Source: a virus. From it: 30,947 bases of DNA. The notes below the pieces were generated by a model. It did not search any database, was not told the origin of the DNA, and saw only the letters and a program-made list of their open reading frames with translations. The stretch covers positions 1-30,947 of the IMG/VR virus record IMGVR_UViG_3300030329_004264. One strand, 5' to 3'. This document shows, piece by piece, positions 13,713 to 30,947 of the stretch. The first letter of the stretch is position 1. Each line of letters starts with the position of its first letter. Both the position numbers and the translations under genes were made by a program.

Positions 13713-14105
13713 ATGAAAAAACTAATTTTATCAATGATAATTATGATATTCGGAAATGTGTACTCACAGCTAAATGATGGGGTATATATATCCAATGAGT
13801 ATCACTATCAACAACTGTGGCAAGACACTGTTAAATCTGATACCATTTTTTATGGTGAGTATAAGTTTGATGTATGTGAAAGAGGTATTAGAATTTATCA
13901 TGGAAATCATATAGGTCGGTATTTTCCTTGGAAATATATAGGAATTTTTGCTGGGTATCCAACTTATATATTGAGCAATAGTGATAAGATTGTTGTTTAT
14001 GATGAGGTTGACGGAATCATCTGGTACTCAGACTCAGATATGGAAATGAGATGGTACAGGATAGCTGATGTTTATTACAATATGAACATAAATGAAAAGA
14101 AATAA
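13713..14105 (+). CDS. Secreted protein with flavobacterial signal peptide
   Basis: Residues 1-19 form a signal peptide (MKKLILSMIIMIFGNVYSQL), with likely cleavage near YS/Q as in many flavobacterial proteins. The mature 110 residues are rich in Tyr, Trp and Asp and strand-like (GEYKFDVCERGIRIYHGNHI; GYPTYILSNSDKIVVYDEVD). This could be a small beta-sandwich in the periplasm or on the outer membrane. Because it sits among early and middle genes, superinfection exclusion or envelope modification are possible roles. No family recognised. Confidence 0.7.
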   Translation: MKKLILSMIIMIFGNVYSQLNDGVYISNEYHYQQLWQDTVKSDTIFYGEYKFDVCERGIRIYHGNHIGRYFPWKYIGIFAGYPTYILSNSDKIVVYDEVDGIIWYSDSDMEMRWYRIADVYYNMNINEKK

Positions 14106-14538
14106 AAAAATAAGGAATGCTACATCCGTAAAAAAGGGCAGGTTAAAATTTAGGTCTAAGCTTGAGCTATTTACTTATAATCAACTTAAAGCTAATAAAA
14201 TTCCTTTCAGTTATGAAAAGGAAAAATTTGTATTGATAGACTCATTCACTTATGAGGGTGAGTCATATGAGAAAAAGAAGAAGAAAGGGAAGGGGGTATT
14301 CCTCAAATCTTCTAATAAAATACCTCAAGCGACCTACCTGCCTGATTTTACAAACTTAAAAGACGGATGGATAATAGAATGCAAAGGATTAAGAACAGAA
14401 GCGTTCAATCTAAGATGGAAAATGTTTAAGAATATTCTTGCAAAAGAGAAAAAATTTTACGACCTTTACATGCCTGGGACTAAGACTCAGGTATTAGAGG
14501 TAGTACAATTAATAAAACAAAAATATAAGAAATGTTAG
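14092..14538 (+). CDS. DUF1064-type / endonuclease-I-like PD-(D/E)XK nuclease
   Basis: The 148-residue product has a basic N-terminus, an N-terminal helix SKLELFTYNQL (E25), PDFTN (P84, D85), IIECKG (E96, K98) and the final helix after LRWKMFKNIL. D85, E96 and K98 match the catalytic triad of T7 endonuclease I, which resolves branched DNA; DUF1064 proteins share the plan. It overlaps the secreted protein by 14 bases and the holin-like gene by seven. It is the second resolvase-like nuclease within 1.3 kb. Confidence 0.8.
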   Translation: MKRNKKIRNATSVKKGRLKFRSKLELFTYNQLKANKIPFSYEKEKFVLIDSFTYEGESYEKKKKKGKGVFLKSSNKIPQATYLPDFTNLKDGWIIECKGLRTEAFNLRWKMFKNILAKEKKFYDLYMPGTKTQVLEVVQLIKQKYKKC

Positions 14539-14933
14539 CAGGATTATTCAAATCACTTATTGGAAATGCTTCAACCATTATTGATGAGTGTGTGACAACT
14601 AAAGAAGAGAAGTTAACTCTTAAAAATAAAATGAAAGAGATATTAGCTCAAGCTGAAGCTAATGCTCAAGAACAGGTGACACGAAGATGGGAGGCTGATG
14701 CTAAAGCAGGATGGCTGCCCGCAAACATAAGACCTCTAACTATGGCATTCTTAACGATAATGCTTGTAGTTATGTCGTTTTTTGACGGTAATGTAGGTGG
14801 ATTTCAAATGAATCCTGTATATGTTCCTGTATATCAAACACTACTTATGGTGGTGTATTCAGCTTACTTCGCTGGACGTTCAATAGAAAAAATTAAAACT
14901 AACAATAAAATTAAAGAAAATGGAAAAAAATAA
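14532..14933 (+). CDS. 3TM-type holin candidate
   Basis: The 133-residue protein has an amphipathic helix with a Glu/Lys-rich stretch, AKAGWLPANIRPLTMAFLTI near residue 57, and membrane helices at about 68-85 and 98-115, then a basic tail. The W-L-P/R-N-I-R-P entry into the first membrane helix is the mark of the 3TM holin family used by phages and gene transfer agents to permeabilise the inner membrane. It is at the far end of the plus-strand unit. The enzyme it would release could be 16880-17644 on the other strand. Confidence 0.72.
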   Translation: MLAGLFKSLIGNASTIIDECVTTKEEKLTLKNKMKEILAQAEANAQEQVTRRWEADAKAGWLPANIRPLTMAFLTIMLVVMSFFDGNVGGFQMNPVYVPVYQTLLMVVYSAYFAGRSIEKIKTNNKIKENGKK

Positions 14934-15958: not shown

Positions 15959-16456
15959 TTAATCAAAATCTATATATTTTATAGTAACTGTTTTATTACT
16001 CTCTAAAGCCTCAGCTATTCGGGGATATATCCTTTTATAAGCTTGAGTTGACTTCCCTATAAAACCGTTCTTCGTGATTTGGTTGTTCTCCTGCGAGTCC
16101 CCAACAAGTAGACACCCAGCTGTGTGTTCATCAGTGTTGCCACAATGAATGAGAATATACTCAAACCCAGGAACATTAGTAACGTGAAGCATACCCCTGT
16201 GTATATCAGAAAACCTCTTACTATATTTTTTATTAAACCCACCTTCTTTTCTGAGTTTTAATTCATATTCTCCAGCAGGTATTCTTGTTTCACCAAAAAC
16301 TTTTTCATCCCTTTGTTCATCTTCTAAAGTATAACATAGAAACTTTTTCTTACATCTAAATCCTTCACTATAAGGACTATCAGCCATCTCTACCTCAAAC
16401 ATTATTCCTGATGTAGAATCCTCTTCACTTGATATTCTATATACCTCTAAGTTCAT
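15959..16456 (-). CDS. DUF5675 family protein (possible cell-wall enzyme)
   Basis: The 165 residues contain the family landmarks: a cysteine-rich start, CYTLEDEQRD, RIPAGEYEL (58-66), His91 in GMLHV, IHCGNTDEHTAGCLLVGD (103-120) and a final strand. DUF5675 is often near phage lysis genes. Its His-Gly-Asn and T-x-G-C pattern recalls L,D-transpeptidase-like active sites, but catalysis in the family is not established to my knowledge. It lies between the two related beta-rich proteins with two- and six-base gaps. Confidence 0.82.
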   Translation of the reverse strand: MNLEVYRISSEEDSTSGIMFEVEMADSPYSEGFRCKKKFLCYTLEDEQRDEKVFGETRIPAGEYELKLRKEGGFNKKYSKRFSDIHRGMLHVTNVPGFEYILIHCGNTDEHTAGCLLVGDSQENNQITKNGFIGKSTQAYKRIYPRIAEALESNKTVTIKYIDFD

Positions 16457-16879: not shown

Positions 16880-17644
16880 CTACTCCATAAACCTTGGTAG
16901 TGGACCCATGAGATTTTCTTGAACAGTATCTGTCGGCATAAATGGAGGTCCCTCTTGTTCTTCATCTATTTGAGAGCTGGGTGAATAAATACTCCTAAAA
17001 GCATTTAGATATTCAGGAATAGTTTTATTAACTTCACCTGGTACGGTGAAATCCCTACCCTCTCTTAAGGATGCAAAATATTCCCTTGCATTTGGGTGTC
17101 CTTGAAAATGCTCTAGAGCCATTAAATCATAATAACTTAAATCACCAATTAAACCCTCTCTTGAGAAATCTTTAATTGCATTTCTAGTTAAATTTTGACC
17201 ACCAGGTCCGTAGTCTCTTTGTAGTGATTTTATCTGCTTAGGATATTCACTAGTTATTAACCAGTCCATATATTTTTCCTGGGTTTTTGGATTGTTTTTA
17301 AACTGTTCCTTACTAGTTATTCCGTATTTTTTTCTCAACTGTTTTGCGTGAACATTGTCAGTTAATTTATTAAGAAACTTATTAAACTCCGATTTAGTTA
17401 AGTTATACTCCTCTCCTAGATATTTAAAGGTTTCACCTTCTTTATATATATCCTTTAACTTCTTTTTTTCATCATTAGCAAATCTAACAATAATTTGATA
17501 AGGTCCAACAGCATTACTAGTTGGAGACTCTAATGTATAAGCACCTCTATTGCCAGAAGCTTCAACATGATTGATGGCCTTCTTGAATAATTCAGCATCA
17601 AAATCATCGTTATTATTGTCTTGTATTTTATTAAACCTAGCCAT
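16880..17644 (-). CDS. Lytic-transglycosylase-like protein (phage lysozyme fold)
   Basis: The 254-residue protein has AINHVEASGNRGAYTLESPT with the likely catalytic Glu28, then NAVGPYQI (44-51), the Gly-Pro-Tyr-Gln-Ile stretch of SLT-type enzymes. Later come a helical region and LEHFQGHPNAREYF. The C-terminal 60 residues are Pro/Glu-rich and probably unstructured. There is no signal peptide, so it needs a holin or is carried in the virion. It could be the endolysin or a particle-borne wall hydrolase. Its start overlaps the stop of the Cys protein gene (TAATG). Confidence 0.75.
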   Translation of the reverse strand: MARFNKIQDNNNDDFDAELFKKAINHVEASGNRGAYTLESPTSNAVGPYQIIVRFANDEKKKLKDIYKEGETFKYLGEEYNLTKSEFNKFLNKLTDNVHAKQLRKKYGITSKEQFKNNPKTQEKYMDWLITSEYPKQIKSLQRDYGPGGQNLTRNAIKDFSREGLIGDLSYYDLMALEHFQGHPNAREYFASLREGRDFTVPGEVNKTIPEYLNAFRSIYSPSSQIDEEQEGPPFMPTDTVQENLMGPLPRFME

Positions 17645-17840: not shown

Positions 17841-17888
17841 TTAATCTGCAAAAGGAACATCCTCATTTAAATCAAGAGGTTCCTCTAT
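17841..17888 (-). other. In-frame continuation of the nuclease gene after a -1 shift
   Basis: The nuclease at 17885-18253 ends in A9-C-A8 followed by TAG. Reading one base back on the A8 run opens 15 further codons, beginning IEEPLDLNEDVPFAD, before TAA at 17843-17841. The extension is acidic and coding-like and fills most of the space to the next gene. It may mean programmed slippage, a real frameshift mutation, or a homopolymer sequencing error. Confidence 0.4.
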
Positions 17889-18253
17889 TTTTTTTGTTTT
17901 TTTTTACCACCCCAATACTCAACAGCATATCCTTCTTTTACAAGGGTGTCATTAATGTTGATAGGTAAATCTAAGTTTTTAGGATATACAACTAATACAC
18001 CTAATACTCTTCCATATTTACCTACCTCTCTACTCTCTACAACCAAAGAGCCTTTGCCTAATAACTCTATTAGCCTATCTTTAGCGGCTAAACCTCTTTT
18101 CTTTTCCTCTAAATCTCTAGTTCTAGACTCCGGACTATCAATACCTGCTAGCCTTATTCTCTTGTGAATAGTGATATCAAAACCTAAATCTATATGAGCA
18201 TCTATGGTGTCACCATCAACCACCCTATCTAGTTTTGCTTTATAAGTATACAT
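17885..18253 (-). CDS. Staphylococcal-nuclease-like protein (thermonuclease fold)
   Basis: I use ATG 18253, preceded by AATTAAT, instead of the upstream start that would overlap the next gene. The 122-residue product carries VVDGDT (11-16), RLAGIDSPE with R34, D39 and E42, and KYGR with R82. These are the catalytic and calcium-site positions of the SNase fold. There is no signal peptide. The role would be to degrade nucleic acid, perhaps host DNA, or to act on DNA in the particle. The end is a Lys-rich homopolymer region with a possible -1 extension. Confidence 0.85.
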   Translation of the reverse strand: MYTYKAKLDRVVDGDTIDAHIDLGFDITIHKRIRLAGIDSPESRTRDLEEKKRGLAAKDRLIELLGKGSLVVESREVGKYGRVLGVLVVYPKNLDLPININDTLVKEGYAVEYWGGKKKQKK

Positions 18254-18254
18254 A

Positions 18255-18644
18255 TTAATTAAATTTTGCAAGCATGATGTCATCTATCCTGCTCTGTATT
18301 TCATTTTTGTCAGCATCAAGCTGAAACATTATATTGGCCTTAAACCTTTCCTTTTCCTCTCCGCTTTCAAAAATAATAACAGTAGGTAAACTAGTTATAT
18401 TAAACTCTGATTGTATATTGGGATATTTACCAACATCAACTCTGTATTTTGCACAATCATCTAATTTAGATAAATCAACAAACTCATTGGATGAATTCCA
18501 TTCCACCCAAAACTCTACAGCTACAATGTCTTTAGCTATCTTTTCGTTAAAATTAGACTCTGTTAAAAACTCCTGACCTGTTACTATTCCCATCATAAAA
18601 AACAAAAGTCCTAGTAGTATTAATAAGTGATTAGATATATTCAT
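18255..18644 (-). CDS. Secreted thioredoxin-fold protein lacking the catalytic cysteines
   Basis: Residues 1-23 are a signal peptide ending near VTGQ. The body follows thioredoxin: VAVEFWVEWNSSNEF (41-55), a Tyr/Val strand, then FNITSLPTVIIFESGEEKER with the cis-Pro at 87. In thioredoxins the segment is WCGPC; here Asn50 and Asn53 stand in place of both Cys, so no disulfide exchange is possible. It is probably a periplasmic or membrane-anchored scaffold or chaperone. Genes on both sides are late genes with one- and two-base gaps. Confidence 0.78.
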   Translation of the reverse strand: MNISNHLLILLGLLFFMMGIVTGQEFLTESNFNEKIAKDIVAVEFWVEWNSSNEFVDLSKLDDCAKYRVDVGKYPNIQSEFNITSLPTVIIFESGEEKERFKANIMFQLDADKNEIQSRIDDIMLAKFN

Positions 18645-18645
18645 A

Positions 18646-18930
18646 TTAGTCCATGTTATCTATTTTATTTCTAAGGTATTTCATATCCTCTTTTATTTCC
18701 GCCACATCTTCCTGGGTGGTCATGATGGTTTGCCTCACCATTTGGTCCTTCATGTCGAACTCCATTTTAGTTACCTCTGGTGGAGGTGGTTCTGGAAGAA
18801 GTTTAGCTTCTTCAATATCAGCTTGTAGTGTGAACCACATACCGACTAATGTAGCTATTAATACTGCTATTCCACCTAACGTCTTTAGGCTTACTTCAAA
18901 TTTTGATTCTTCTGAAAGTTCTTTTGCCAT
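18646..18930 (-). CDS. Single-TM protein with periplasmic or cytoplasmic coiled coil
   Basis: Membrane helix at about 17-35 (LGGIAVLIATLVGMWFTLQA), then a Pro run (LPEPPPPEV) and a charged coiled coil to the end (MTTQEDVAEIKEDMKYLRNK). The architecture resembles inner-membrane spanin-like subunits or small phage scaffold proteins. Without a partner outer-membrane lipoprotein in view, a spanin call would be speculative. Confidence 0.7.
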   Translation of the reverse strand: MAKELSEESKFEVSLKTLGGIAVLIATLVGMWFTLQADIEEAKLLPEPPPPEVTKMEFDMKDQMVRQTIMTTQEDVAEIKEDMKYLRNKIDNMD

Positions 18931-18947
18931 TATTATTTATTTATTTG

Positions 18948-19802
18948 TTACCTTTTCTTTTTCTTTTTAAACTTAAAAACAAATGCACCATCTTCTCCTT
19001 TTATTTTATCGTAAATAGCTTTGGTTCCAACAACCATACTACCCACAGGATTAGACCTACTCATCGCCTCCATTTGTTTTTCTTTCTTTGTTACATCAAT
19101 AGTTCCGCTACCACTACCCTGCTTCATTTTTTTATCAAATTCTTGTTTTTTTAGCATTTTCTTTTTACTCGCCAACTCTTTTCTGCTAGTAATTTTTGGA
19201 CCTATATTTGTATCTACATTCGCAGAGATATTTGGCTTTTTTATAGGGGGTAGTTTTATCTCAGAAACATTTTTAATAGCATCTCCAACTTCAGCACCTT
19301 TATCAGCAAATATACCACCTTGGGTTCCGTAAGAGTCTTTTCTAGGTAAATCATAATCCGAGCTAAGTAACCAATCAAAACTTATGTTTGGAAAATTTAT
19401 ATTTAAATTACTTAAATCTATTCCTCCACCACCAGACCTAACAGCCCAAGTACTTGGTCTACCAAAAATATCTGTTTTACCTCCTGCTCCTGGAATAGTA
19501 CGTCTTCTTTTTTTAAGAAACATACCCTTCTTAGCTAATAAATCATCTCTGTGTCCACTTCTTTTTCTCTGTCTCCTCTTCTTATCTATAGCTCTCTGTG
19601 TATCTCCCTCCATAACAACTCCTTGCTTTTTCATATTCCTAACACCTTCACCTCCAAATATTTTTCTATCACCCAATCCAGGTCTATATTCTCCATCAAC
19701 TCTTTTTCCTCCAAAAAGTTTATTAAGCATAGTTCCTTCTTTATCAACCTTTCTGTCTGGGTTAACTCTAGAGCTGCTAGCAAATGTTCCTCTTGATTTC
19801 AT
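18948..19802 (-). CDS. Very basic Gly/Lys-rich protein, possible virion-internal DNA-binding protein
   Basis: The 284-residue protein is rich in Lys, Arg, Gly and Ser with little sign of a globular fold: KKRRQRKRSGHRDD near 75, GMFLKKRRRTIPGAGGK near 93, and a Lys-rich C-terminus KFKKKKKR. The middle (SNLNINFPNISFDWLLSSDY) is the only ordered-looking stretch. Such composition suits a protein packed with the genome or ejected with it. No family recognised. Confidence 0.68.
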   Translation of the reverse strand: MKSRGTFASSSRVNPDRKVDKEGTMLNKLFGGKRVDGEYRPGLGDRKIFGGEGVRNMKKQGVVMEGDTQRAIDKKRRQRKRSGHRDDLLAKKGMFLKKRRRTIPGAGGKTDIFGRPSTWAVRSGGGGIDLSNLNINFPNISFDWLLSSDYDLPRKDSYGTQGGIFADKGAEVGDAIKNVSEIKLPPIKKPNISANVDTNIGPKITSRKELASKKKMLKKQEFDKKMKQGSGSGTIDVTKKEKQMEAMSRSNPVGSMVVGTKAIYDKIKGEDGAFVFKFKKKKKR

Positions 19803-19803
19803 A

Positions 19804-20019
19804 TTATTTTTTCTTTGCGAATTTCTCTACACCACTAATACCAAAACATCCAAGCACAACCCAAACAAAAGAGTCGTAAACAAATTCATTAATTACTAAG
19901 TCTTTACCAACCCAGCCTGTAACCAAGTCAGCGACCATTATTATACACATAATTACAAACGCTATAAAGCCTATTATAGCTTTTTCATTCCAATTATTGT
20001 TATCTTTAAATATATTCAT
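19804..20019 (-). CDS. Two-TM small membrane protein (holin-like)
   Basis: The 71-residue product has membrane helices at about 13-35 (EKAIIGFIAFVIMCIIMVAD region) and 47-65 (SFVWVVLGCFGISGVE), with a Lys-rich cytoplasmic end. The size and topology suit a class II holin. It overlaps the secreted repeat protein (TAATG), so they are made together. With 14532-14933 the genome has two holin candidates on opposite strands. Confidence 0.7.
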   Translation of the reverse strand: MNIFKDNNNWNEKAIIGFIAFVIMCIIMVADLVTGWVGKDLVINEFVYDSFVWVVLGCFGISGVEKFAKKK

Positions 20020-20789
20020 TATAATTTATATTTAATTTTACCATTTTCTATATATATTCCTTCACGCTCTTTAATAGCTTGACCGTTAAGGTTGTAGATT
20101 AATCCTGTTTCATTTGATTTATCTAACAATTCCTCCAACGAACTATTACAAGGCATACCTGTATCACAATCTATATATTCTGTTTGTATTACCTCAATAT
20201 ACTCCATTACAGTGTCAACAACAACTATTTCAATATATTCAGTTTCTACAACTGTATCAATCACTATCACGTCTACGTATTCAATAACGTCTACATACAT
20301 AGTATCTAAAGCACCATCCATCCATAACGTGTCTGTGACATATATATATTCAGGAACCATAACTTCAACCTCAAATGTATCTACAACAATCTGAGTTATA
20401 TATTCTGTTTCTATTATTGTGTCTAACTGTATAATAGTCTCATAAATATAAAAAGGAACTTCCACTTCTACAGTGTCTATAAGTTCTATATATTCTATTA
20501 CATCTACATATACGGTGTCACAATCAGGAGGTGGTGGAACACAGTCTTCTACAGGGGTAGGAACGGCTCCGTTTTCATCACTTGCATCTACACAATCCTC
20601 CCAACCATCGTTAAGCCAGTTATTTGGAACACAACCATTAGGACTATACTGAGTCCAATTAGATGGGTCATCTCCACAATAAAAACCCTGTGCTTGAGAG
20701 CATGTGATACATAATTGTTGAAAATCTAAATCTTGAGAAAAACTAAATGAACTTATAAACGCAAATAAAACTAATAAAAACTTCTTCAT
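20019..20789 (-). CDS. Secreted LDLa/repeat protein with T9SS-like C-terminus
   Basis: The 256-residue protein has a signal peptide (1-18, ending SFSFSQ). An LDL-receptor-class-A-like domain (27-83) follows, with Cys27, 30, 38, 53, 66, 83 and the calcium-site motif DCVDASDE (65-72). Next comes VPPPPDCD, then a long beta-repeat region (91-208) with recurring D-T-V and E-Y-I units such as TEYITQIVVDT and TEYIEIVVVDT. The C-terminus is GLIYNLNGQAIKEREGIYIE (229-248) then NGKIKYKL. This last pattern resembles the sorting domain that type IX secretion uses to send proteins to the surface of Bacteroidota. If so, a phage protein is displayed or released by the host's own pathway. Starts three bases after the barrel gene. 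Confidence 0.75.
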   Translation of the reverse strand: MKKFLLVLFAFISSFSFSQDLDFQQLCITCSQAQGFYCGDDPSNWTQYSPNGCVPNNWLNDGWEDCVDASDENGAVPTPVEDCVPPPPDCDTVYVDVIEYIELIDTVEVEVPFYIYETIIQLDTIIETEYITQIVVDTFEVEVMVPEYIYVTDTLWMDGALDTMYVDVIEYVDVIVIDTVVETEYIEIVVVDTVMEYIEVIQTEYIDCDTGMPCNSSLEELLDKSNETGLIYNLNGQAIKEREGIYIENGKIKYKL

Positions 20790-20792
20790 AAC

Positions 20793-21848
20793 CTAAAATA
20801 TTAAATAGTTAAAACCAAACTTCACCTCATATATCGGCTTCATCCAATACCTCTGATGAGTCCCTTCTACAAACATGCCTAAATGACTAGTTATTCTAGA
20901 ACCAAAAACAATACCTGCGTCCCATTCTATATTATCCCAATCTTCTACACCGTACTCAAATGAATACTCATCCATACCGTAATGAAAAGGCATACAATTA
21001 GCCCAAGCGTGTAGCCAAAATTTAGGCGTATACTTATAATATGCTATTCCTACAACAGCACTTAATTCTTTCTGCATTCCAAGCTTTTCAAGCTCTATTT
21101 CGTTATATCTAGCTACAGCATCACCGAAGTAGTGGCTGAAGAACTCATCGTTAGAGGTAGCAACTAAAACAGAGTCTCCACCACTAACATCGTACCAATT
21201 TTGATTTACGTAAAATCCTTGTACCCACTGCTCTGGAGCATATCCAAAGTCTTCCGCTAGTTGTTGAAACGTAGATTCTCCAGGTATCCAAAAATCTTCT
21301 ATAGGGTTAACACCGTACACTGGGTGCATACGAAATACACCGCCAATAGTGAAGTCCCAATTACCTTTATTTATTCTAAACCTGGTGTCAAAAGAGTTAT
21401 ATCTTAAATCGACTCTTTGGTTATCCTTATATTGAACCTTTGTTACGCATCTATTTCCAAGGTATCTAAGCCAGAAATTTTGCTCAGTATACTTATCACC
21501 ACGATTGCGTATAAATGAATAATTAAGTAGATACTCCCAACCAGTAGCGTTACCAATAGTAACATTGTCTGCAACAGCTTTTTCAGTGCCGTAATACCAC
21601 GTTTTAACCTTATATTCATAATCAAATCTTGCTATTTTTCTTATCCCTATAGTTAAATTGTAGTCATAGGGGTTAACTTCGGTTACGTCCTCATAACCTT
21701 TATCAACAGCTATATAATCCTCTCTTTCTGTGAAAGAAGTACCTGTAGTCATTGATGTATAGAATGTTGAATATTTAAAAAAATCATTAAACTGTGCGTT
21801 AGAAACTCCACAGATTAAGATTAATAGTATTGTTATTATATTTTTCAT
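20793..21848 (-). CDS. Outer-membrane beta-barrel-like protein
   Basis: The 351-residue protein has a signal peptide (1-18, ending SNAQ) and then alternating polar and aromatic residues typical of membrane strands (WEYLLNYSFIRN; NFWLRYLGNRCVTKVQYKDN; WDFTIGGVFRM; KFWLHAWANC). It ends GFNYLIF with a terminal Phe, the usual barrel-assembly signal. Trp and Tyr girdle residues are frequent. No Cys-rich or enzyme motif. It would be inserted in the host outer membrane, or carried in the particle. The -7-like TATATTTG at 21862-21855 stands just before the start. Confidence 0.75.
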   Translation of the reverse strand: MKNIITILLILICGVSNAQFNDFFKYSTFYTSMTTGTSFTEREDYIAVDKGYEDVTEVNPYDYNLTIGIRKIARFDYEYKVKTWYYGTEKAVADNVTIGNATGWEYLLNYSFIRNRGDKYTEQNFWLRYLGNRCVTKVQYKDNQRVDLRYNSFDTRFRINKGNWDFTIGGVFRMHPVYGVNPIEDFWIPGESTFQQLAEDFGYAPEQWVQGFYVNQNWYDVSGGDSVLVATSNDEFFSHYFGDAVARYNEIELEKLGMQKELSAVVGIAYYKYTPKFWLHAWANCMPFHYGMDEYSFEYGVEDWDNIEWDAGIVFGSRITSHLGMFVEGTHQRYWMKPIYEVKFGFNYLIF

Positions 21849-21854
21849 ATCTTA

Positions 21855-21862
21855 CAAATATA
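21855..21862 (-). promoter_or_regulatory. Isolated -7-type box before the barrel gene
   Basis: TATATTTG on the minus strand, seven bases before the start at 21848. I found no TTTG box about 20 bases further upstream; the DNA there is a run of A on this strand. Weak or activator-dependent promoter at best. Confidence 0.35.
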
Positions 21863-21881
21863 CTTATTTTATTTATTATTT

Positions 21882-24800
21882 TTATTTTTTCCTCTTACTT
21901 TTCTCAAACTCAAGCAATTTATCTAATTGTTCTTCAAAATTATAACCTCTTCCAGTACTTACTTTTAGAAACTCTTGATAGTATCTACTTTCCTTATCCA
22001 TGTTTACTTCTAATTCAATAAAATTAAGCCAATCATTAACCTTTTGTAAAATCTCTTTTTCAGTCATTCTTGAAGTTATAGGAGTTCTTCGTATTTCTCC
22101 ACTAAGAGTTTTACTCCAAAACTCCCAATTATCTAAAGTTGATTGTGCTGCCTCATTAGGAGATGCTGTTTTTGAATAAGTTATCCAAATCATATCGCTG
22201 TCATATCTGTGTTCAGTTGCTCTTACAAAATCATCCTGTATGTTTTTTGTACCAGTTTTCAACAAAGTGTTATATTCTACCCCATCTATTATATTTAAAT
22301 TATAGAGGTTATTATAACCATTACTTAAATTTTTTATAGCCTCATCCATCATAAGTTTCCCTCTCTCTTGCCCATCTTCTCCACTATTGTAAAGATTAAC
22401 AGCTTGAACAAATAATCTAGTAGATTCATCTTTAACTCTTCTTATCTGAGCCCTGTATGTTATCTCCTGCCGCTTACCTTTCTCGTATTTTATCCAATTC
22501 TGGTGGTCTTTATCTGATAAGTAGTGTTCAGTCCTGGATGGAACCCACAATATAGATGGAGCTAAGTCACCTGCCATTTCTACTATACTATTGTATGTCA
22601 CTTCATTTACACTACGTCTTTCTTCTTCACTTAATTGACTTGTTATAGCATTGTATAAACTCTGACCCGTTGTTCTATATATATTTGTGCCATTTAAACC
22701 AAAAGCACCAGGAACAGCTACAAGCCTATCTGGAGATAGTCTCATCTCCTCAGGAATTGAGCCATTCCATTTTTTAGTAGCATCAAAGAATATATTTGGT
22801 GTTGCTTGCTGATACTCTCCCTCTGGTAATATACCATCATACATTTCCATTAACGGTGAATAAGCAAAGCCTATAGCATCTCTACCCCTAGTGTAATTTT
22901 TTATAGCCATCAACCAAGGGTTGTTTTGATTCTCCCACCAATGATAAAAATTAAAAGCATCTGTTATACCAACTGAAAGAGCCTCTTCCATAGCACTCTT
23001 TTGCTCTTCGTTCATAACATCTAAAAACACATTATTAAAATCAACATCCCATATAGGCTCACCGTAAGCTTCATTGTAGTATATATTATGGCCCAACTGC
23101 CAGAAAAACATTGATGAATGGTCTTTAGCCATCTTAGTATACACTTGGTCTCCATTAGAATCTTTAACACCAGGTATAGGTAAGTGCAGATAACTAACAT
23201 AGTTATAAACACTACCACTTCTTAGTTTATTCATATCCTCACCATGTTCATTATCCATCATTTGAGAATACATATATCCAGCTGCTATAAGTTGACTAAC
23301 CTTTAACGCTGTTGATGTTGGATTTTCTGTCCAAGCCCTACCTAAAATTTTTGTTCCTTGAAAAGCGGGATTTAGGTAAGGGTAATACCTATCCATTTCC
23401 CCAATAAACCTACCTTTCACAGAAAAGTCTATTGTGTTTCTAGCCGTATTAACAGCCTGCATTTCTATTTCTTTCATTCTAGCCTCACCTATTCCATTCT
23501 CTAATGCGTATTCTCTTATAGGCTTAGAATCAAGATTTCCACTATGTGTAAATTCAAGACCTCTCTTTTCAAATTCTGCTTTTACCAAATTATTTAAACT
23601 TCTATTAGCTACAGCTAAACGCACCCATATCTCCGAAGATAAACCTGGATACTGCAGTATATCTATAGCTCTTCTCTGTAGTTTCTTCCTGTAACTCATT
23701 GGGTCAGCTCCCATTTTTTCATACATAAGTTTTTCGTATTGATACCTAGCATTATCATAGAAACTAATGTTTCCGTTTTTATCTGCAATAGGCTCTTTTA
23801 TATCATAACCTAAATGAAATTCACCTGTATTAGCACCCATTTGCATAAGGTGCTCCATACTTCCACCATTATTTATGTACCAAGAATATATTTCGTTGTT
23901 CATATTCTTTTTCCCCCAAGCACCCCATCTTGTATACATTAAGTCACCAGTTAATTGAGACAATCCTAATGGCATAAAATCACTATAGGTAGGGGTCCAC
24001 ATATAAGCGTGCATATAGTCTCTAGCAAAGTTTTTAACGGCAAAAATAGGATTTGCACCCGTTGTGAAGAATTTCATTTTTTGAGTTCCCCACTCTAGAG
24101 TACTTAAGCCAGTTTCTATTGGCATTGTCCAAACTCTATTCCATGACGATTTTAAATTGAATTGAGCCAGATGCTGTCTTAGTGGATTACTATATTCACC
24201 CACCTGGTTAACAGACTCCCAGTATGACTTCTCTAAAAAGTAGTACTGTTTTTCTCCATTTTTATAATAATAACTTTCAACGAAATTGCTGTTTTGAGGG
24301 TTTTTAGCATCATATATCAAAAGACTTAATCCATTAGCAACCCTAAAAGAGTTTATATCAGCTAATCTAGCGGTAACATTAGCTTCTGTGGGTTTTTCGC
24401 CTCTCATTGTAAATCCAAGGTCGGCAAATTGATATAAATTAGCAGACTCCATCTGTTCAAGAACTTCAAACATATCTCTTTTTGCCATGTTCATCCATAA
24501 AAGTCTTTGAATATTAGCTGCGTACTTAGGGAGAAGATTTTGATGATTTTGACTCATTTTATCGGTGCTACCCGCTCCCAGAAGTTTTATACCTTTAGCA
24601 TCTCCCCAATTATCTTTACCAGTCTCTCTTGGGTCAACTTGTTTATATGTATCCATATACTGAAGATATAACCTAGGACTGTATTTTCTTTTAGCCATCC
24701 TATTGTAGGCCTCTTCCCCAATAATACCTTCCCTATACATTTCATCAAGTTGAGCCCTGTAAAAATCAAATAATATATTTGCTCTTTCATTTAGTTTATT

Positions 24801-27800
24801 GTACTCTTTCTCTCCAATTTCAACTCTTAGGTCATTAAGGCTTTTTTCCATTGAGCTTCTACTAGGAGAATACTGGTTTGCACCAAGTTGAACAGCCATA
24901 TTGTTTATTTGCCATGGGTATATATTTTGCCCACTTCCAGGATGCGTAACGGCATCTATTCCTGCGGGTATTTCTATCTCGTATGTCTTTCCTCCGTATT
25001 TAATATTTTTTTGCACTAAGGAATAACTACCATTTGGATTCTCTTTATATGTTATAGGGGAATTTTCATTTTGACTTATATATTTTAAAGAGTTTTCTAA
25101 ATTTTGTTTTGCTGCATTAACTTCTTTAATACCAGCTCCTGTTTTTACAAGGTTATTTAACTCTAATAATTGAGCATCTACTTTTAGTTTATCTGAATTA
25201 ATCATATCCCAAATAGACTTATTTGACTCCAGTCTAATAATTGTGTTTAAGCTAGTTCTTTGCTTAGCATTTAAATGAGAAGTACCAAATACCCCCTCCA
25301 GTGATGTGCTAGGATTTAAACCTCCCCAAATTTTTAACATGTAGGGCTCGGCTTTCATATTACCTATACCGCTAGCTCCAGCAGAATTTTCCAGAGTTAC
25401 CATAGCATTAAAAGCATCATTTGCCAGTTTATCTCTTTTTACTTTTGACAACTGAGGAAACGCACTATTTACTTCAAGTTCTACAAGTTTAAATAGGTCT
25501 TCTTTAAGTCTTATATTCTTATCAAAAAGATACTCTTTCATACCCAGGCTAAATCCAGTATTAGTAGTACTTCTCCACAAAGACCTCTTATAGGTAAATG
25601 TATTAATGAACTCACTTTTGTAATACTCTTGAGCTTGTCTATTTGATATTGAGCCTAGAACATCCGTTATCTCTGTTGGAAACTCGGTGTTTTTTCCTTT
25701 TGGAACGACATCTTCAAACGGTATTATCTCCGCACCCTTCATTATATCCATCATATCCTCCTGACTAATCCTAATACTACCGTTTCCATCAACGTAAGGA
25801 AATATTATACTTTTAAAATCTCTACTTCCAGATATCATTTGTCTAATATGAAGCAGGTCTTCAGGCCTTATCTCTATAGGTGTTCTGTTTTCAGATTCTC
25901 TTTTACTATTAATAGCCTCTATCATTTTAGAATATTCTTTAGTAGCAAAATCAGCCACCTCCAATGGATGTCTACCCTCATTAATAAGATTTTTTGCGTT
26001 CTCTAAAATGCTTTGAGCGGTGTTTATTTTTACAGTATTCTCTTCAGTATTAACTCCCCTTTTTTTACTTTCCTCCATCAATCTAACTGCTGTATCAATC
26101 AATTTTATAGACTGCTTTCCGTAATTTTGGTTTTTTTCATATTCAGTAAAAGCTTCTATAGTTTCATCAATCCTCATCTTATAACTTAAATCACCTTTAA
26201 ATCCTGTTTTAACACTTTCACCGTTTGATAAATCTATAATTTCTTCGACACCAAGTCTTCTGCCAAGTTCTTTTGCGTAAGAGAAATTTAGTCCATCCAT
26301 TACACCCACTATCTCAATAACACTATCACCTGTTTTATCCACTCTTGTTGACACTGCAAAAGCCTCATTTTGAAGTATATCAGCATTCTTTTCTCTAAAT
26401 TTTTCTAAATCTTTTTCAGTAAATTTTTCTCCCTTTTTTATTGTTATAGACCTTTCAGGAAAAACATTATTTAAAACATACTTTGTTTGCCCTTTTATTG
26501 AGCCGTATAAATCACTAAAGAAACTGTTGCCAGATTCATTATGTTCTTTAATTTGGTTTTTATTTGTTTCAATACTGTTATAATCAAAGCTAGTAGGTAT
26601 ATACGCATTTTGCATAGACTTACCTTCAACACCTTGCTTCATAAAATCTTTTAGTATTTGAACAGCTTTATCTTTTTTACTAACTCCTAAGTTGTAGAGG
26701 TTTATATCTCCTTCTTGAATAATCTTAACACCACTAACAGTTTCTATCCCTACCATATCTATATTTCTACCTTCCAGAATAAACTGTCCCTCTACATTTC
26801 TTTTAAGAACCAGTTCTATTGCTGGGATGTCTCCTTCTTCAGCTTTTACAGTATAAACAAACTCCCTAGTCTTGTTGTTGTAAACAAAATCTTGAGTTTT
26901 TATATTATTTGGCTCAGGTACATTTTGTCCATATTCAGCTTGAACTAATTCATTTTCATACTTCGGTCTAATTTTAACAGTCTCCTCAGTATATTCATAT
27001 TTTTCAAACTCTCCCTTTAATTTTACGCCTACCTGAATATAGTCTGAGGCAAATCCATCACTCATGTTGTATTCTCCAGTTGTTCGCCTCATGAACCCCT
27101 TATATTCTCCTGTTAAATAATATATACCTTCATTTGTAATATACCGGTCTTGCTGATATGTTTTAGACACTTGATATGCAGCCGCTCCATCCATTCCGTA
27201 TACCATAAAAACTTCTGTAACATTCCCATTTTCATCTACCACATTAACCTTTTCATATTCAGAAATTGTACCTCTATTTTTTCTGGCCTCTAAATCAGCT
27301 ATTAACTCTTCTGTTCTAGATTTATTTTCAGCTTCTGATAATTCTTTTTTTGTAGCAGAAATTAAGCTATATGAGTCTAAATTATTTTTATCTAATCTAT
27401 GAGATATATCAGACTCTATTTGCTCCTTTGAACCGTGATTAACACCTCTTTCTTTTGGAATAATCCAAAACGAACCATATTTATCATTATTAATAAGCTG
27501 TCTAGTTGACTGATAACCAAAGATATCACTTAAACCCATTGTTCCTTGATATTGCTCAATAGCTTTTAAACACTTACTAGCATATTCCTTAACCTCTATA
27601 GGGTAATCTCCATTAATAATTTTTTCTGATATTTCGCTTTTACTTTGTTTAACAAAGGCACGTGCTTGTGGAGCGTGAAACGCTGCAGCAAATAAAACTG
27701 TAGAACAAAACTTTTGAACCGCTTCATCTTCTGTTGAGCCAACAACCATTTGTACAGCTTCCATAAAGTCTATGCCTTGGCTAGTCCAAGCATCGGCAAG

Positions 27801-30800
27801 TTCAGCAGAATACATACCTACAGTACCAGAAGCTATACCACCACCATACAAACTCAATCCAAGTGCTGTTTTATCAAGAAAACCTACCGTTTTTGGTACA
27901 AATCCTTCTACATTAACTTTTTTAGGGTCTAAGTATCTCCTATATAAATAATTACCAGCTGATGTACTTGGAAACAGCATTCCAAATCCAGTAGAACCAA
28001 TACCTAAACCAGCTCCAGACGCAAAAGTATAATCCTCTCCAGGGGTGAGATAAAACGCTGTTCCTGTTATAGTTCCAGCCTCACCTAAGTTCCATGCTAT
28101 TTTACCAACAGGTCCTTTGCTATACATATACTGCCTCAAAGCACTATACCTTAAAGCTTGACTAAGCTGTGTGTTTAAAGTCATTTCCTCTAAAGTAGTT
28201 ATACCACTACCCTTTAAACCTCCCTTTTCAACAGGTACGTTTTTCAATCTAGACAGGTCTTTTGAGCTATAAATACTCTTTAAAGGTGTTGAAACCCCAA
28301 CCCCCTTTCTTACTCTAGAAAACAATTTAGATAACTGTGCTATTGTATTCACAGTTCCCATACGAGCAATCGGGAATAAAACAGTACTTTGAAGACCTAT
28401 GACAGGTATTAAATGACCGACACCGTAAGCGACATTATCCCACATGTCATTTTGAGCACTTTCAATTTCTTCTTCCGAAAGATATATACCATATTTTTGT
28501 GCTGCTGTAACATAGTTGGTCACAAAATCAGCCTCTGAATAATATTCACCTCTCCAAAAACCAGTTTGACCCTCAGTAATTTCTGGACTAAGGTTCAATC
28601 TCTTGAATGCGTCTATCTCTCTTCTTTTGTGCATATTCAAGATAACCTTTCCATTGTTTCCTCTTTTATAAATATCTTGATATCTATTACCGGTAGTAAA
28701 ACTTCTGTTTATAACATCACCGAAATCAGAAACAAGTTTAGTTACACCCTCCCCTATAAATCCTTCAAAAAGAGTTTTTTCATTAACCCAAGAATCAAGA
28801 TTTAAAAATGAGTCTTCTCCAAGATGTGTTCCTCTTGTTTTTGAACTGACATCAGAATTGGTTAATATTACCTGCCAGATTGCTTTCATGTCAGCTCTAG
28901 TTTCAACAAATTGTCTTATATATTCTTCTCTAATTCTTTTAACCCTATGTTCAAGGCCATCGTAAAGAGCTTTTTGTTCATCAGTTCCTCTATTATCTAT
29001 ATTAAAAGGAAGATTTTTTGCTCTTCTTTTACTTTCATCTAGTTGGTCGTACTCACCCCATATATATCCTTGAAGATTTGGGAAAGAATATTTTCTATCA
29101 TCACCGGTATTTCCTAATAACGCATCTAATTCACCGTGGTCTGGAAATAGTTGAAAAGCTTCAGATAGGCTCATATCATAAAGCCACACCTCATTGTCTT
29201 TTATGTTAAATTGTCTTTCCGGAATATGAAACGGACCACCCATCCCTTCTACCTTATCAAATATAGATAAATCATATTCCTTTCCTTGGTATTCAAACAT
29301 ACCATTTTTTATTTTTTTACTTAATCTTTCTGGATTTTTTTCTTTTAAATTAAGATAATAACTAAAAGCCTGTCTACTAAAACCCTCAATTTTACTTCTC
29401 CAAACACCTGGAGTTAACTGAATCCTGTATCCATCTTCATCATCTAACATCTCAGTCCACATCATGTCTCTAAAAACTAAGTTATGTCCGACATCAAGTA
29501 TTCCCGCAGCATCAATTTGACCGGTCATTAAAATATCATTAAAGTTTTTTATGTTATCGTTTACTATTTTGTTAAAATTAATCATGTTAGATGACCATAT
29601 ATCATCAGCTATATTGTTTGAGCCTTGTAAGCTCTCAACAACCTCTTTGTCGTGTCTGTTTCCATTATAGTCATATAAAGCAGTAAACCTTAAGTGGCTA
29701 TCTTTAGCCCTTAATTTTTGAAAATCAACAGCTATTAAATCTAATTGTGCATTTAATGAACCAAGTTTTGTTGTTATTGTAGCTCTTTTATCAGAGTCTT
29801 CAGGAAGTTCTTTAAACTCCCCCTGTAATTTATCTATTTCATTTAGAATCCCTCTTTCTTTATCAATTAACTCAAACCATTCTTGAAACTCTTTATCGTT
29901 ATCAAAAAAATTTCTAACATACAATTCATTTTCATCATAAATATTAGCAACAAATGTTTTAATCTCTTCTTTTGTATAATTCCTACCTGGTTGCAAAAAC
30001 TCTCCTTCTATTTTTGGCTTAATTCCAAACCTTTCATTTGCTCTGGTGGCTGCAAGTATATCTTTATAACCTAAAATTGCGTTCTTGTCAAACCCACCTA
30101 AATAACCTCCAGGTAAATTAGAATTTTTAGTTAGTATATTTAAAGTAGTAGATGGTCTGTATATACCTAGATGTTTGTTGTTTCCTGAACCCATACCAAA
30201 AATGTCTTGTTTGGTGCCTACATCCATAAAAGTATACGGAACTCCATTGTTATAAAGAGCTATACCACTGTTTATTTCGTCATCAAGAAGTATAGCTGTG
30301 GTAAAGTCATTAGAGTTTTCCCATCCATTTTCAGTGTTCTGATATAAAGCTTTTCTGTAATGAAAGTTTGTTAAATCAGCAGTACTATGGTCTTCATCTA
30401 GCTCACTCAACAATCTCTCTAGTTGCTCTACCATTCTTTTACCCTCATCAGTGTATTCTTTAACCCACTTATATTTGTCAGTTTGAACAGAACCCTGACC
30501 AGCTGCGGTGACAACCTCACCATAAACTATTTCTTTCCAATCAAATAGTTTTACTTCATTGTCAAAACCTCTGTTAATATAACCTTCGCTCATATCTGCT
30601 TGAGCTAAAGCTGACACAAGCTTAAGAACTTCCTCTTGCTTAAATTCAGTTCCTATGCTTTGTCTTCTTTTTCTTTTTTTATCCCAAACATTTTTATCGT
30701 TCAAAAAAACACCTCCCTCCCAAGGAGCTAGACTATCAATATCTTCATCAGGCATAAATGTCTGCATATAACTATTATAAGCTTCCATATCCCAATCAGA

Positions 30801-30947
30801 CTGGAATTTTTTTGCTCTATTTCGTTTAGGGCCACCTTCTTTTCCAGACAATCCAAAGCCACCATCCTCCTCTCTGTAAATCATATTCATCACCGATTCG
30901 GTGTCAAAATAATTAACATCTTGTATGCCTGGAAAATTGGCTATTTC
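21882..30947 (-). CDS. Giant phage protein (over 3000 residues, 5' end outside the window), polyvalent/ejection type
   Basis: The frame is open for 3021 codons, from the window edge to the stop at 21882. The first start-type codon inside is GTG at 30893, but the 18 codons before it (EIANFPGIQDVNYFDTESV...) are also open, so the true start probably lies beyond 30947. I number from GTG. Residues 348-400 form a charged coiled coil. Hydrophobic, Gly-rich stretches occur at about 818-860 and 935-1080. A region with YRAQLDEMYREGIIGEEAYN lies near 2050. At about 2480-2520 comes AVNTARNTIDFSVKGRFIGE and NPAFQGTKILGRAW, which resembles the LPD38 domain of large polyvalent phage proteins. I found no polymerase motif. 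Such giants are packed in virions and injected, like T7 gp16. The first gene of the late unit here, it is followed by envelope-protein genes. Confidence 0.72.
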   Translation of the reverse strand, partial: EIANFPGIQDVNYFDTESVMNMIYREEDGGFGLSGKEGGPKRNRAKKFQSDWDMEAYNSYMQTFMPDEDIDSLAPWEGGVFLNDKNVWDKKRKRRQSIGTEFKQEEVLKLVSALAQADMSEGYINRGFDNEVKLFDWKEIVYGEVVTAAGQGSVQTDKYKWVKEYTDEGKRMVEQLERLLSELDEDHSTADLTNFHYRKALYQNTENGWENSNDFTTAILLDDEINSGIALYNNGVPYTFMDVGTKQDIFGMGSGNNKHLGIYRPSTTLNILTKNSNLPGGYLGGFDKNAILGYKDILAATRANERFGIKPKIEGEFLQPGRNYTKEEIKTFVANIYDENELYVRNFFDNDKEFQEWFELIDKERGILNEIDKLQGEFKELPEDSDKRATITTKLGSLNAQLDLIAVDFQKLRAKDSHLRFTALYDYNGNRHDKEVVESLQGSNNIADDIWSSNMINFNKIVNDNIKNFNDILMTGQIDAAGILDVGHNLVFRDMMWTEMLDDEDGYRIQLTPGVWRSKIEGFSRQAFSYYLNLKEKNPERLSKKIKNGMFEYQGKEYDLSIFDKVEGMGGPFHIPERQFNIKDNEVWLYDMSLSEAFQLFPDHGELDALLGNTGDDRKYSFPNLQGYIWGEYDQLDESKRRAKNLPFNIDNRGTDEQKALYDGLEHRVKRIREEYIRQFVETRADMKAIWQVILTNSDVSSKTRGTHLGEDSFLNLDSWVNEKTLFEGFIGEGVTKLVSDFGDVINRSFTTGNRYQDIYKRGNNGKVILNMHKRREIDAFKRLNLSPEITEGQTGFWRGEYYSEADFVTNYVTAAQKYGIYLSEEEIESAQNDMWDNVAYGVGHLIPVIGLQSTVLFPIARMGTVNTIAQLSKLFSRVRKGVGVSTPLKSIYSSKDLSRLKNVPVEKGGLKGSGITTLEEMTLNTQLSQALRYSALRQYMYSKGPVGKIAWNLGEAGTITGTAFYLTPGEDYTFASGAGLGIGSTGFGMLFPSTSAGNYLYRRYLDPKKVNVEGFVPKTVGFLDKTALGLSLYGGGIASGTVGMYSAELADAWTSQGIDFMEAVQMVVGSTEDEAVQKFCSTVLFAAAFHAPQARAFVKQSKSEISEKIINGDYPIEVKEYASKCLKAIEQYQGTMGLSDIFGYQSTRQLINNDKYGSFWIIPKERGVNHGSKEQIESDISHRLDKNNLDSYSLISATKKELSEAENKSRTEELIADLEARKNRGTISEYEKVNVVDENGNVTEVFMVYGMDGAAAYQVSKTYQQDRYITNEGIYYLTGEYKGFMRRTTGEYNMSDGFASDYIQVGVKLKGEFEKYEYTEETVKIRPKYENELVQAEYGQNVPEPNNIKTQDFVYNNKTREFVYTVKAEEGDIPAIELVLKRNVEGQFILEGRNIDMVGIETVSGVKIIQEGDINLYNLGVSKKDKAVQILKDFMKQGVEGKSMQNAYIPTSFDYNSIETNKNQIKEHNESGNSFFSDLYGSIKGQTKYVLNNVFPERSITIKKGEKFTEKDLEKFREKNADILQNEAFAVSTRVDKTGDSVIEIVGVMDGLNFSYAKELGRRLGVEEIIDLSNGESVKTGFKGDLSYKMRIDETIEAFTEYEKNQNYGKQSIKLIDTAVRLMEESKKRGVNTEENTVKINTAQSILENAKNLINEGRHPLEVADFATKEYSKMIEAINSKRESENRTPIEIRPEDLLHIRQMISGSRDFKSIIFPYVDGNGSIRISQEDMMDIMKGAEIIPFEDVVPKGKNTEFPTEITDVLGSISNRQAQEYYKSEFINTFTYKRSLWRSTTNTGFSLGMKEYLFDKNIRLKEDLFKLVELEVNSAFPQLSKVKRDKLANDAFNAMVTLENSAGASGIGNMKAEPYMLKIWGGLNPSTSLEGVFGTSHLNAKQRTSLNTIIRLESNKSIWDMINSDKLKVDAQLLELNNLVKTGAGIKEVNAAKQNLENSLKYISQNENSPITYKENPNGSYSLVQKNIKYGGKTYEIEIPAGIDAVTHPGSGQNIYPWQINNMAVQLGANQYSPSRSSMEKSLNDLRVEIGEKEYNKLNERANILFDFYRAQLDEMYREGIIGEEAYNRMAKRKYSPRLYLQYMDTYKQVDPRETGKDNWGDAKGIKLLGAGSTDKMSQNHQNLLPKYAANIQRLLWMNMAKRDMFEVLEQMESANLYQFADLGFTMRGEKPTEANVTARLADINSFRVANGLSLLIYDAKNPQNSNFVESYYYKNGEKQYYFLEKSYWESVNQVGEYSNPLRQHLAQFNLKSSWNRVWTMPIETGLSTLEWGTQKMKFFTTGANPIFAVKNFARDYMHAYMWTPTYSDFMPLGLSQLTGDLMYTRWGAWGKKNMNNEIYSWYINNGGSMEHLMQMGANTGEFHLGYDIKEPIADKNGNISFYDNARYQYEKLMYEKMGADPMSYRKKLQRRAIDILQYPGLSSEIWVRLAVANRSLNNLVKAEFEKRGLEFTHSGNLDSKPIREYALENGIGEARMKEIEMQAVNTARNTIDFSVKGRFIGEMDRYYPYLNPAFQGTKILGRAWTENPTSTALKVSQLIAAGYMYSQMMDNEHGEDMNKLRSGSVYNYVSYLHLPIPGVKDSNGDQVYTKMAKDHSSMFFWQLGHNIYYNEAYGEPIWDVDFNNVFLDVMNEEQKSAMEEALSVGITDAFNFYHWWENQNNPWLMAIKNYTRGRDAIGFAYSPLMEMYDGILPEGEYQQATPNIFFDATKKWNGSIPEEMRLSPDRLVAVPGAFGLNGTNIYRTTGQSLYNAITSQLSEEERRSVNEVTYNSIVEMAGDLAPSILWVPSRTEHYLSDKDHQNWIKYEKGKRQEITYRAQIRRVKDESTRLFVQAVNLYNSGEDGQERGKLMMDEAIKNLSNGYNNLYNLNIIDGVEYNTLLKTGTKNIQDDFVRATEHRYDSDMIWITYSKTASPNEAAQSTLDNWEFWSKTLSGEIRRTPITSRMTEKEILQKVNDWLNFIELEVNMDKESRYYQEFLKVSTGRGYNFEEQLDKLLEFEKSKRKK

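Follow-up and report, generated by a model that had tools for sequence, protein, structure and literature searches.

A recurrent cassette of predicted envelope proteins in uncultured marine Bacteroidota phages and its possible role in the outer-membrane step of lysis

A cassette that encodes an outer-membrane β-barrel, a secreted LDLa-like protein, frequently a small protein with two transmembrane (TM) helices, termed TM2, a membrane protein with a coiled-coil-like C-terminal part, termed TMcc, and an exported protein of the thioredoxin fold, termed Trx, is a recurrent unit in phage genomes, and chance co-location of its genes is rejected. The carriers are uncultured marine Bacteroidota phages represented by metagenome-derived contigs, among which the cassette is conserved and swappable. 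The function that we infer, and that we hold to be about evenly balanced between right and wrong, is that the cassette belongs to the lysis equipment and performs the outer-membrane step that is done elsewhere by spanins. If this reading is right, the cassette may be an unrecognized means by which Bacteroidota phages breach the outer membrane when infection ends.

The window, by which we mean the whole stretch of DNA that was analyzed, is a virus fragment of 30,947 bases with a GC content of 32%. Replication and related genes occupy the plus strand up to ~15.2 kb, and minus-strand genes lie beyond, the cassette and an open reading frame (ORF) of 3003 residues among them. The initial annotation had described six adjacent minus-strand genes between positions 18255 and 21848, with spacing from overlap up to 17 bases, that follow a protein of more than 3000 residues. 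This layout is reproduced in full: all six ORFs are found, the gaps from barrel to Trx measure 3, −1, 1, 17, and 1 bases, and the 3003-residue ORF ends 33 bases upstream of the cassette. The features of the region are as follows.

21882–30893, minus strand: giant protein, 3003 residues, its ORF still open at the contig end; a neighbor only
20793–21848, minus strand: barrel, 351 residues; predicted outer-membrane β-barrel with Q19 at the predicted cleavage site and a C-terminal Phe; core
20019–20789, minus strand: LDLa protein, 256 residues; predicted to be secreted, LDLa-like; usual but optional module member
19804–20019, minus strand: TM2, 71 residues, two predicted TM helices; frequent, optional
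18948–19802, minus strand: basic protein, 284 residues, very basic; lineage-specific, outside the conserved module
18646–18930, minus strand: TMcc, 94 residues; one predicted TM helix and a coiled-coil-like C-terminal part; core
18255–18644, minus strand: Trx, 129 residues; predicted exported thioredoxin fold with NxxN; core
17885–18283, minus strand: SNase-family nuclease (PF00565) with no visible signal peptide; non-core
16880–17644, minus strand: possible lysozyme- or transglycosylase-like protein, assigned with low confidence from sequence; phrog_4538 (function unassigned), E 6e-4
15959–16456, minus strand: DUF5675 protein, possible peptidoglycan L,D-enzyme (PF18925, E 1.3e-28); recurrent module neighbor
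14532–14933, plus strand: holin, PHROG 3427 (phrog_3427, E 2.2e-23)

Two independent searches lead to the same module of barrel, LDLa protein, optional TM2, TMcc, and Trx. In the first, the barrel served as the seed in a collection of 2.9 million viral contigs, which gave 80 loci in which the partners were sought by tblastn; in the second, run on the same collection, the seed was a Trx profile, and the closest 80 of 468 relatives were taken. The module recurs in ~160 loci over both seeds, some of which are the same contig found twice. In the barrel-seeded loci, the LDLa protein is found in 78 of 80, Trx in 73, TMcc in 71, and TM2 in 47. Among the closest 80 of the 468 Trx relatives, TMcc and Trx are direct neighbors without exception (78 of 78). 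In those with at least 4.5 kb of upstream sequence available, 57 of 58 loci encode the barrel and 54 of 58 encode the LDLa protein. Whether the genes stay together in homologous loci was the check proposed with the initial annotation, and the answer from both seeds is strongly affirmative. Its inclusion of the basic protein does not survive the same comparison: no relative of this protein is found in the 80 loci or in the viral contig collection, and it was therefore dropped from the module. The gene for the SNase-family nuclease, found in 16 of the 80 loci, wanders, lying after Trx or between the LDLa protein and TM2 depending on the relative.

The arrangement of the module varies around a smaller core. 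In four distant loci (L143, L180, L182, and L184), with barrels 32–50% identical, the order is barrel-TMcc-Trx, followed by an M15 or DUF5675 gene and a holin gene, which indicates that barrel-TMcc-Trx is the minimal core; the contig of L182 starts inside the barrel gene. Between Trx and M15 of L182 lies a gene (889–1434) for an unrelated exported protein with a short tail similar to that of the LDLa protein (YYDLLGREVKPVKGFYI), and no LDLa gene was found in this locus. In six split loci (L006, L028, L038, L039, L051, and L061), the barrel-LDLa and TMcc-Trx pairs are 7–8 kb apart on opposite strands, and both are retained. Such variability in order, spacing, and strand, together with the optional nature of TM2 and the LDLa protein, is what would be expected of independent late envelope genes that have separate roles and are co-inherited in a late operon. 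That explanation has to contend with retention of the set when it is split, and with its retention across unrelated genomes that share nothing else except the holin, and we consider it unlikely.

The genomes that carry the module differ in their virion genes. Among 50 records that are 28 kb or longer, the terminase phrog_6681 is encoded in 41 and an unrelated portal, phrog_33693, in 6 others, with both found in none. The closest annotated relatives of the phrog_6681 terminases are from elemo-group Flavobacterium phages, Maribacter phage Panino, and an environmental record. All-against-all comparison of a siphovirus-like genome, G014, with the window, G006, and G002 shows that the only common ORFs are those of the barrel, LDLa protein, TM2, TMcc, Trx, and the PHROG 3427 holin, with TMcc below threshold for G006 and one opposite-strand shadow ORF of TMcc set aside. 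The lowest identity is 33% (TMcc, G002) and the highest 88% (TM2, window); the barrels are 60–67% identical. The module is shared between this siphovirus-like lineage and the crAss-like lineages of the window and of the 62–88 kb genomes, which we read, as far as sequence comparison tells, as horizontal exchange of the cassette between phages with unrelated virions.

These comparisons bear on genome entry, which had been put forward together with lysis and exclusion as a possible role for an envelope conduit. An entry conduit, or a virion component that acts with the giant protein, would explain why the giant gene lies directly upstream of the barrel both here and in 9 relatives of the window, and the initial annotation had described the giant protein as an ejection-type neighbor. 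This association is not upheld, as the giant gene is directly upstream of the barrel in 9 of 59 loci and missing there in the other 50, so that a constant association with virion or ejection genes is not seen; tblastn finds the C terminus of the giant protein in just 3 of the 80 barrel-seeded loci. The presence of the module in phages with unrelated portals and terminases speaks against a virion or genome-entry role, and the signal peptides of its exported proteins indicate that these are made and exported by the infected cell, which argues against entry as well. We regard an entry role as highly improbable. Weakly similar to a virion structural protein of phage phi46:3 and to Panino, the giant protein itself is probably a virion or internal protein. 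A giant protein of Panino (L250:18229-23718) resembles part of the 3003-residue protein of the window; its annotation as a "tRNA methyltransferase" is probably a misannotation.

Lysis genes are usual neighbors of the module. Of the Trx-seeded loci from the closest 80 of 468 relatives, 56 have at least 4 kb of downstream DNA, and within 7 kb of Trx a peptidoglycan enzyme is encoded in 44 of these and the PHROG 3427 holin in 31, as raw counts given without a chance expectation; 12 of the 56 have neither. The same holin is found in 33 of 50 records. The neighboring enzymes are of at least three kinds, namely M15, DUF5675, and a PHROG 33083 endolysin-like protein, and for DUF5675 a function as a peptidoglycan enzyme of phages is suggested by sequence. 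A DUF5675 relative (L143:10372-10851) weakly matches Tlde1_dom, an L,D-transpeptidase-like domain, with E 2.2e-5. In L109, from the siphovirus-like lineage, the genes for the LDLa protein, TM2, TMcc, Trx, M15 endolysin, and holin are consecutive and overlap by 1–4 bases. Because the module so often neighbors genes for endolysin and holin, lysis fits best of the three roles originally offered. Counting against lysis, as do the 12 loci with neither gene, the holin gene in the lineage of the window is on the strand opposite to the cassette and apart from it. Across seven genomes or fragments scanned for hydropathy and signal motifs, the module and the holin account for most of the envelope-type proteins found.

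The barrel had been called barrel-like from its sequence, and the AlphaFold2 (AF2) model of its alignment bears this out, folding into a barrel of ~12 long strands with a mean pLDDT of 72; confidence is moderate overall and low near residues 74–99. A signal peptide, a closed antiparallel barrel, and a C-terminal aromatic residue, the marks of an outer-membrane β-barrel, are all present in this moderate-confidence model. A Gln residue at position +1 of the signal peptide cleavage site is what the Q-rule of the Bacteroidetes describes (PMC5837995). Such predicted signal peptides are found on the barrel, the LDLa protein, and Trx, with the Gln at the predicted site invariant in each alignment (Q19, Q19, and Q24, respectively). 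These signal peptides, the barrel model, and the hydropathy scan agree with the envelope placement first proposed for the cassette. A further exported Q-rule protein of 130 residues, with no family match, is encoded near the holin gene of the window (13713–14105, plus strand) and at the same place in G006.

No sequence relatives of the barrel were found in the PDB, in cultured phages, or in the bacterial genomes searched. An unnamed viral protein in BFVD, A0A516LKJ4, looks homologous to it (28% identity, E 1e-27). Other phages also carry genes for barrels, such as the OmpA-like protein of Cellulophaga phage phi14:2 and other BFVD barrels; apart from A0A516LKJ4, these have no sequence relation to the barrel described here and no known tie to TMcc, Trx, or lysis genes. 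Matches of the barrel model in the PDB, all with low TM-scores, comprise many kinds of outer-membrane barrel. Porins are included among these matches, as would suit a permeability or nutrient pore through which the infected cell takes up substrate with the aid of chaperone-like helpers. With no sequence-level similarity to porin families, and with the partners and lysis neighbors unaccounted for, a porin appears very unlikely.

Trx had been described as a cysteine-free thioredoxin fold. The fold is supported by PF00085 (E 1.6e-7, above the cutoff) and by PDB profile matches down to 5e-13, but one cysteine remains, and what is missing is the redox-active catalytic CxxC pair, which is replaced by an N-x-x-N motif that is invariant in 32 aligned sequences. 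A role as a T7-like DNA polymerase processivity factor was rejected because of the signal peptide of Trx. Elsewhere, a frame in an ssRNA phage record (NC_073930.1:199-444) is thioredoxin-like, with 31% identity to Trx and E 4e-6. The partner of Trx, TMcc, is composed of a short N-terminal region, one TM helix, a Pro-rich stretch, and a coiled-coil-like C-terminal part. This i-spanin-like layout is predicted in ~70 members by hydropathy and inspection of their sequences.

The LDLa protein consists of a Q-rule signal peptide, a disulfide-rich N-domain, a linker of ~130 residues that is rich in DT, V, I, and E, and a conserved tail of 39 residues. Q19 is invariant in 41 of these proteins, with the cleavage site called by eye and regular expression (regex). 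As to the initial LDLa assignment, the window protein falls below the Pfam cutoff for PF00057 (E 0.0036), but 33 of 41 members of its family give weak matches. AF2 models the N-domain at high confidence, leaves the 130-residue linker disordered, and folds the tail into a helix plus a hairpin; the Foldseek structure matches are weak and mostly to LDLa modules. The nearest cellular relatives of the LDLa domain are mainly Flavobacteriales proteins, and one of these, L103, combines LDLa copies with a PF18962 tail of the type IX secretion system (T9SS).

The final 39 residues (YNLxGQxI...GIYIxNGKxKY) are conserved across 30 aligned members. Short T9SS signals of 43–55 residues are found in Prevotella intermedia (PMC11969387), and the final 22 residues of HBP35 are required to export a GFP fusion (PMC3120885). 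Similar to the short-tailed T9SS cargo of P. intermedia, the LDLa protein has a signal peptide and a tail close to theirs in length, in which two segments may correspond to motifs D and E; unlike that cargo, it is phage-encoded, its export is predicted, and no family member matches the PF18962 or TIGR04183 profile. Alignment of the tail with host T9SS tails by hhalign covers 9 columns at a probability of 9%, and a genome search with the tail profile is dominated by chance matches, with a few secreted cellular proteins that have like tails (L218, L207, L210, and L217). From its sequence, the tail is a plausible candidate for a short sorting signal of the T9SS. Should this prove correct, the LDLa protein would be a phage-encoded T9SS cargo, which was not found described in the literature searched.

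The predicted location of the barrel in the outer membrane and of the LDLa protein at the surface, together with the PF18962 tail that marks the cellular relative L103 as a surface-secretion substrate, would also suit the main rival to lysis, superinfection exclusion or surface remodeling. Here the barrel and the LDLa protein would alter the surface against adsorption by other phages or the phage's own progeny, and TMcc and Trx would aid assembly. The barrel is strikingly conserved, and its long loop, residues 176–258, would face outward in the usual topology. Lysis, for its part, gives no obvious need for a surface-exported LDLa protein. Nevertheless, the neighbors of the module are lysis and late genes rather than early or lysogenic ones, and exclusion leaves its tightest pair, the inner-membrane coiled coil and the redox-dead Trx, unexplained; we consider exclusion fairly unlikely.

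If the cassette does act in lysis, TMcc would be anchored in the inner membrane and extend its coiled coil into the periplasm, where the redox-dead Trx would serve as a binding adaptor, and the barrel would be seated in the outer membrane. Once the wall barrier had been removed by holin and endolysin, this inner-to-outer-membrane bridge would disrupt or fuse the outer membrane. The LDLa protein would probably be exported to the cell surface, perhaps via the host type IX system, and TM2 may be an accessory holin or antiholin.

The proposed arrangement is reminiscent of the two-component spanin of phage λ, Rz/Rz1. As in an i-spanin, TMcc has an N-terminal TM helix and a predicted periplasmic coiled coil; in addition, the module genes lie near endolysin and holin genes, an outer-membrane partner is predicted, and a role in the last step of lysis is proposed. 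The main differences are that the outer-membrane partner would be a β-barrel rather than a lipoprotein with a lipobox, that the module adds a Trx-fold protein and a surface protein, and that there is no embedded or overlapping o-spanin gene. A regex scan for lipoboxes in 104 regions found a small spanin-like lipoprotein in just two, L020 and L032, the remaining matches being signal peptides of the barrel, LDLa protein, or Trx, or spurious. The two lipoproteins (near position 1551 of the scanned region in L020 and 1548 in L032) are Pro-rich, 53 and at least 61 residues long, respectively, and encoded between the barrel and LDLa genes; they have o-spanin-like features and DT-rich ends that resemble the LDLa linker. 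A unimolecular spanin, that is, a lipoprotein with a C-terminal TM helix, turned up in none of the genomes to which the regex and hydropathy scans were applied.

Approximately 13% of the phages in a published survey were without spanins, flavobacterial (Croceibacter) and Bacteroides phages included, and the survey noted that an outer-membrane protein could serve as an o-spanin and asked about another route (PMC6139136). For such phages, the cassette is a concrete and testable candidate for an alternative route. We suggest, more tentatively than the lysis role itself, a third route across the outer membrane, next to those of the unimolecular and the two-component spanin, in which a mobile cassette would use the barrel as the o-spanin, the redox-dead Trx as the bridge to the inner-membrane coiled coil, and a T9SS-exported surface protein.

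The annotated phages searched contain no relative of the cassette beyond generic thioredoxin and holin matches. One module-carrying genome, G009, shows synteny with that of Flavobacterium phage elemoF across the chaperonin, terminase, portal, and capsid genes. The elemoF genome is without the module and instead encodes gp32 (L249:30391-30936, plus strand) between the M15 and terminase genes. By eye, gp32 reads as a protein anchored in the inner membrane, with a spacer rich in DT and with β-strands at the C terminus that end in Phe, and no relative of it is found in any module locus. In Maribacter phage Panino, CDS0090 (L250:42701-43303, minus strand) likewise has, by eye, an N-terminal TM helix, a DT-rich spacer, and C-terminal β-strands. 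Both proteins are candidate inner-to-outer-membrane connectors: similar to the cassette, they would tie the inner membrane to a C-terminal β region that ends in an aromatic residue or Leu, through a DT-rich spacer that resembles the linker of the LDLa protein. They differ in being one small protein each rather than a cassette, and their function is putative as well. The presence of the module in G009 and of gp32 in elemoF, a single syntenic pair, fits the replacement of one connector by another. As in the elemo phages, phage GroEL and GroES-like chaperonin genes lie upstream of the module in G009 (20393–22257).
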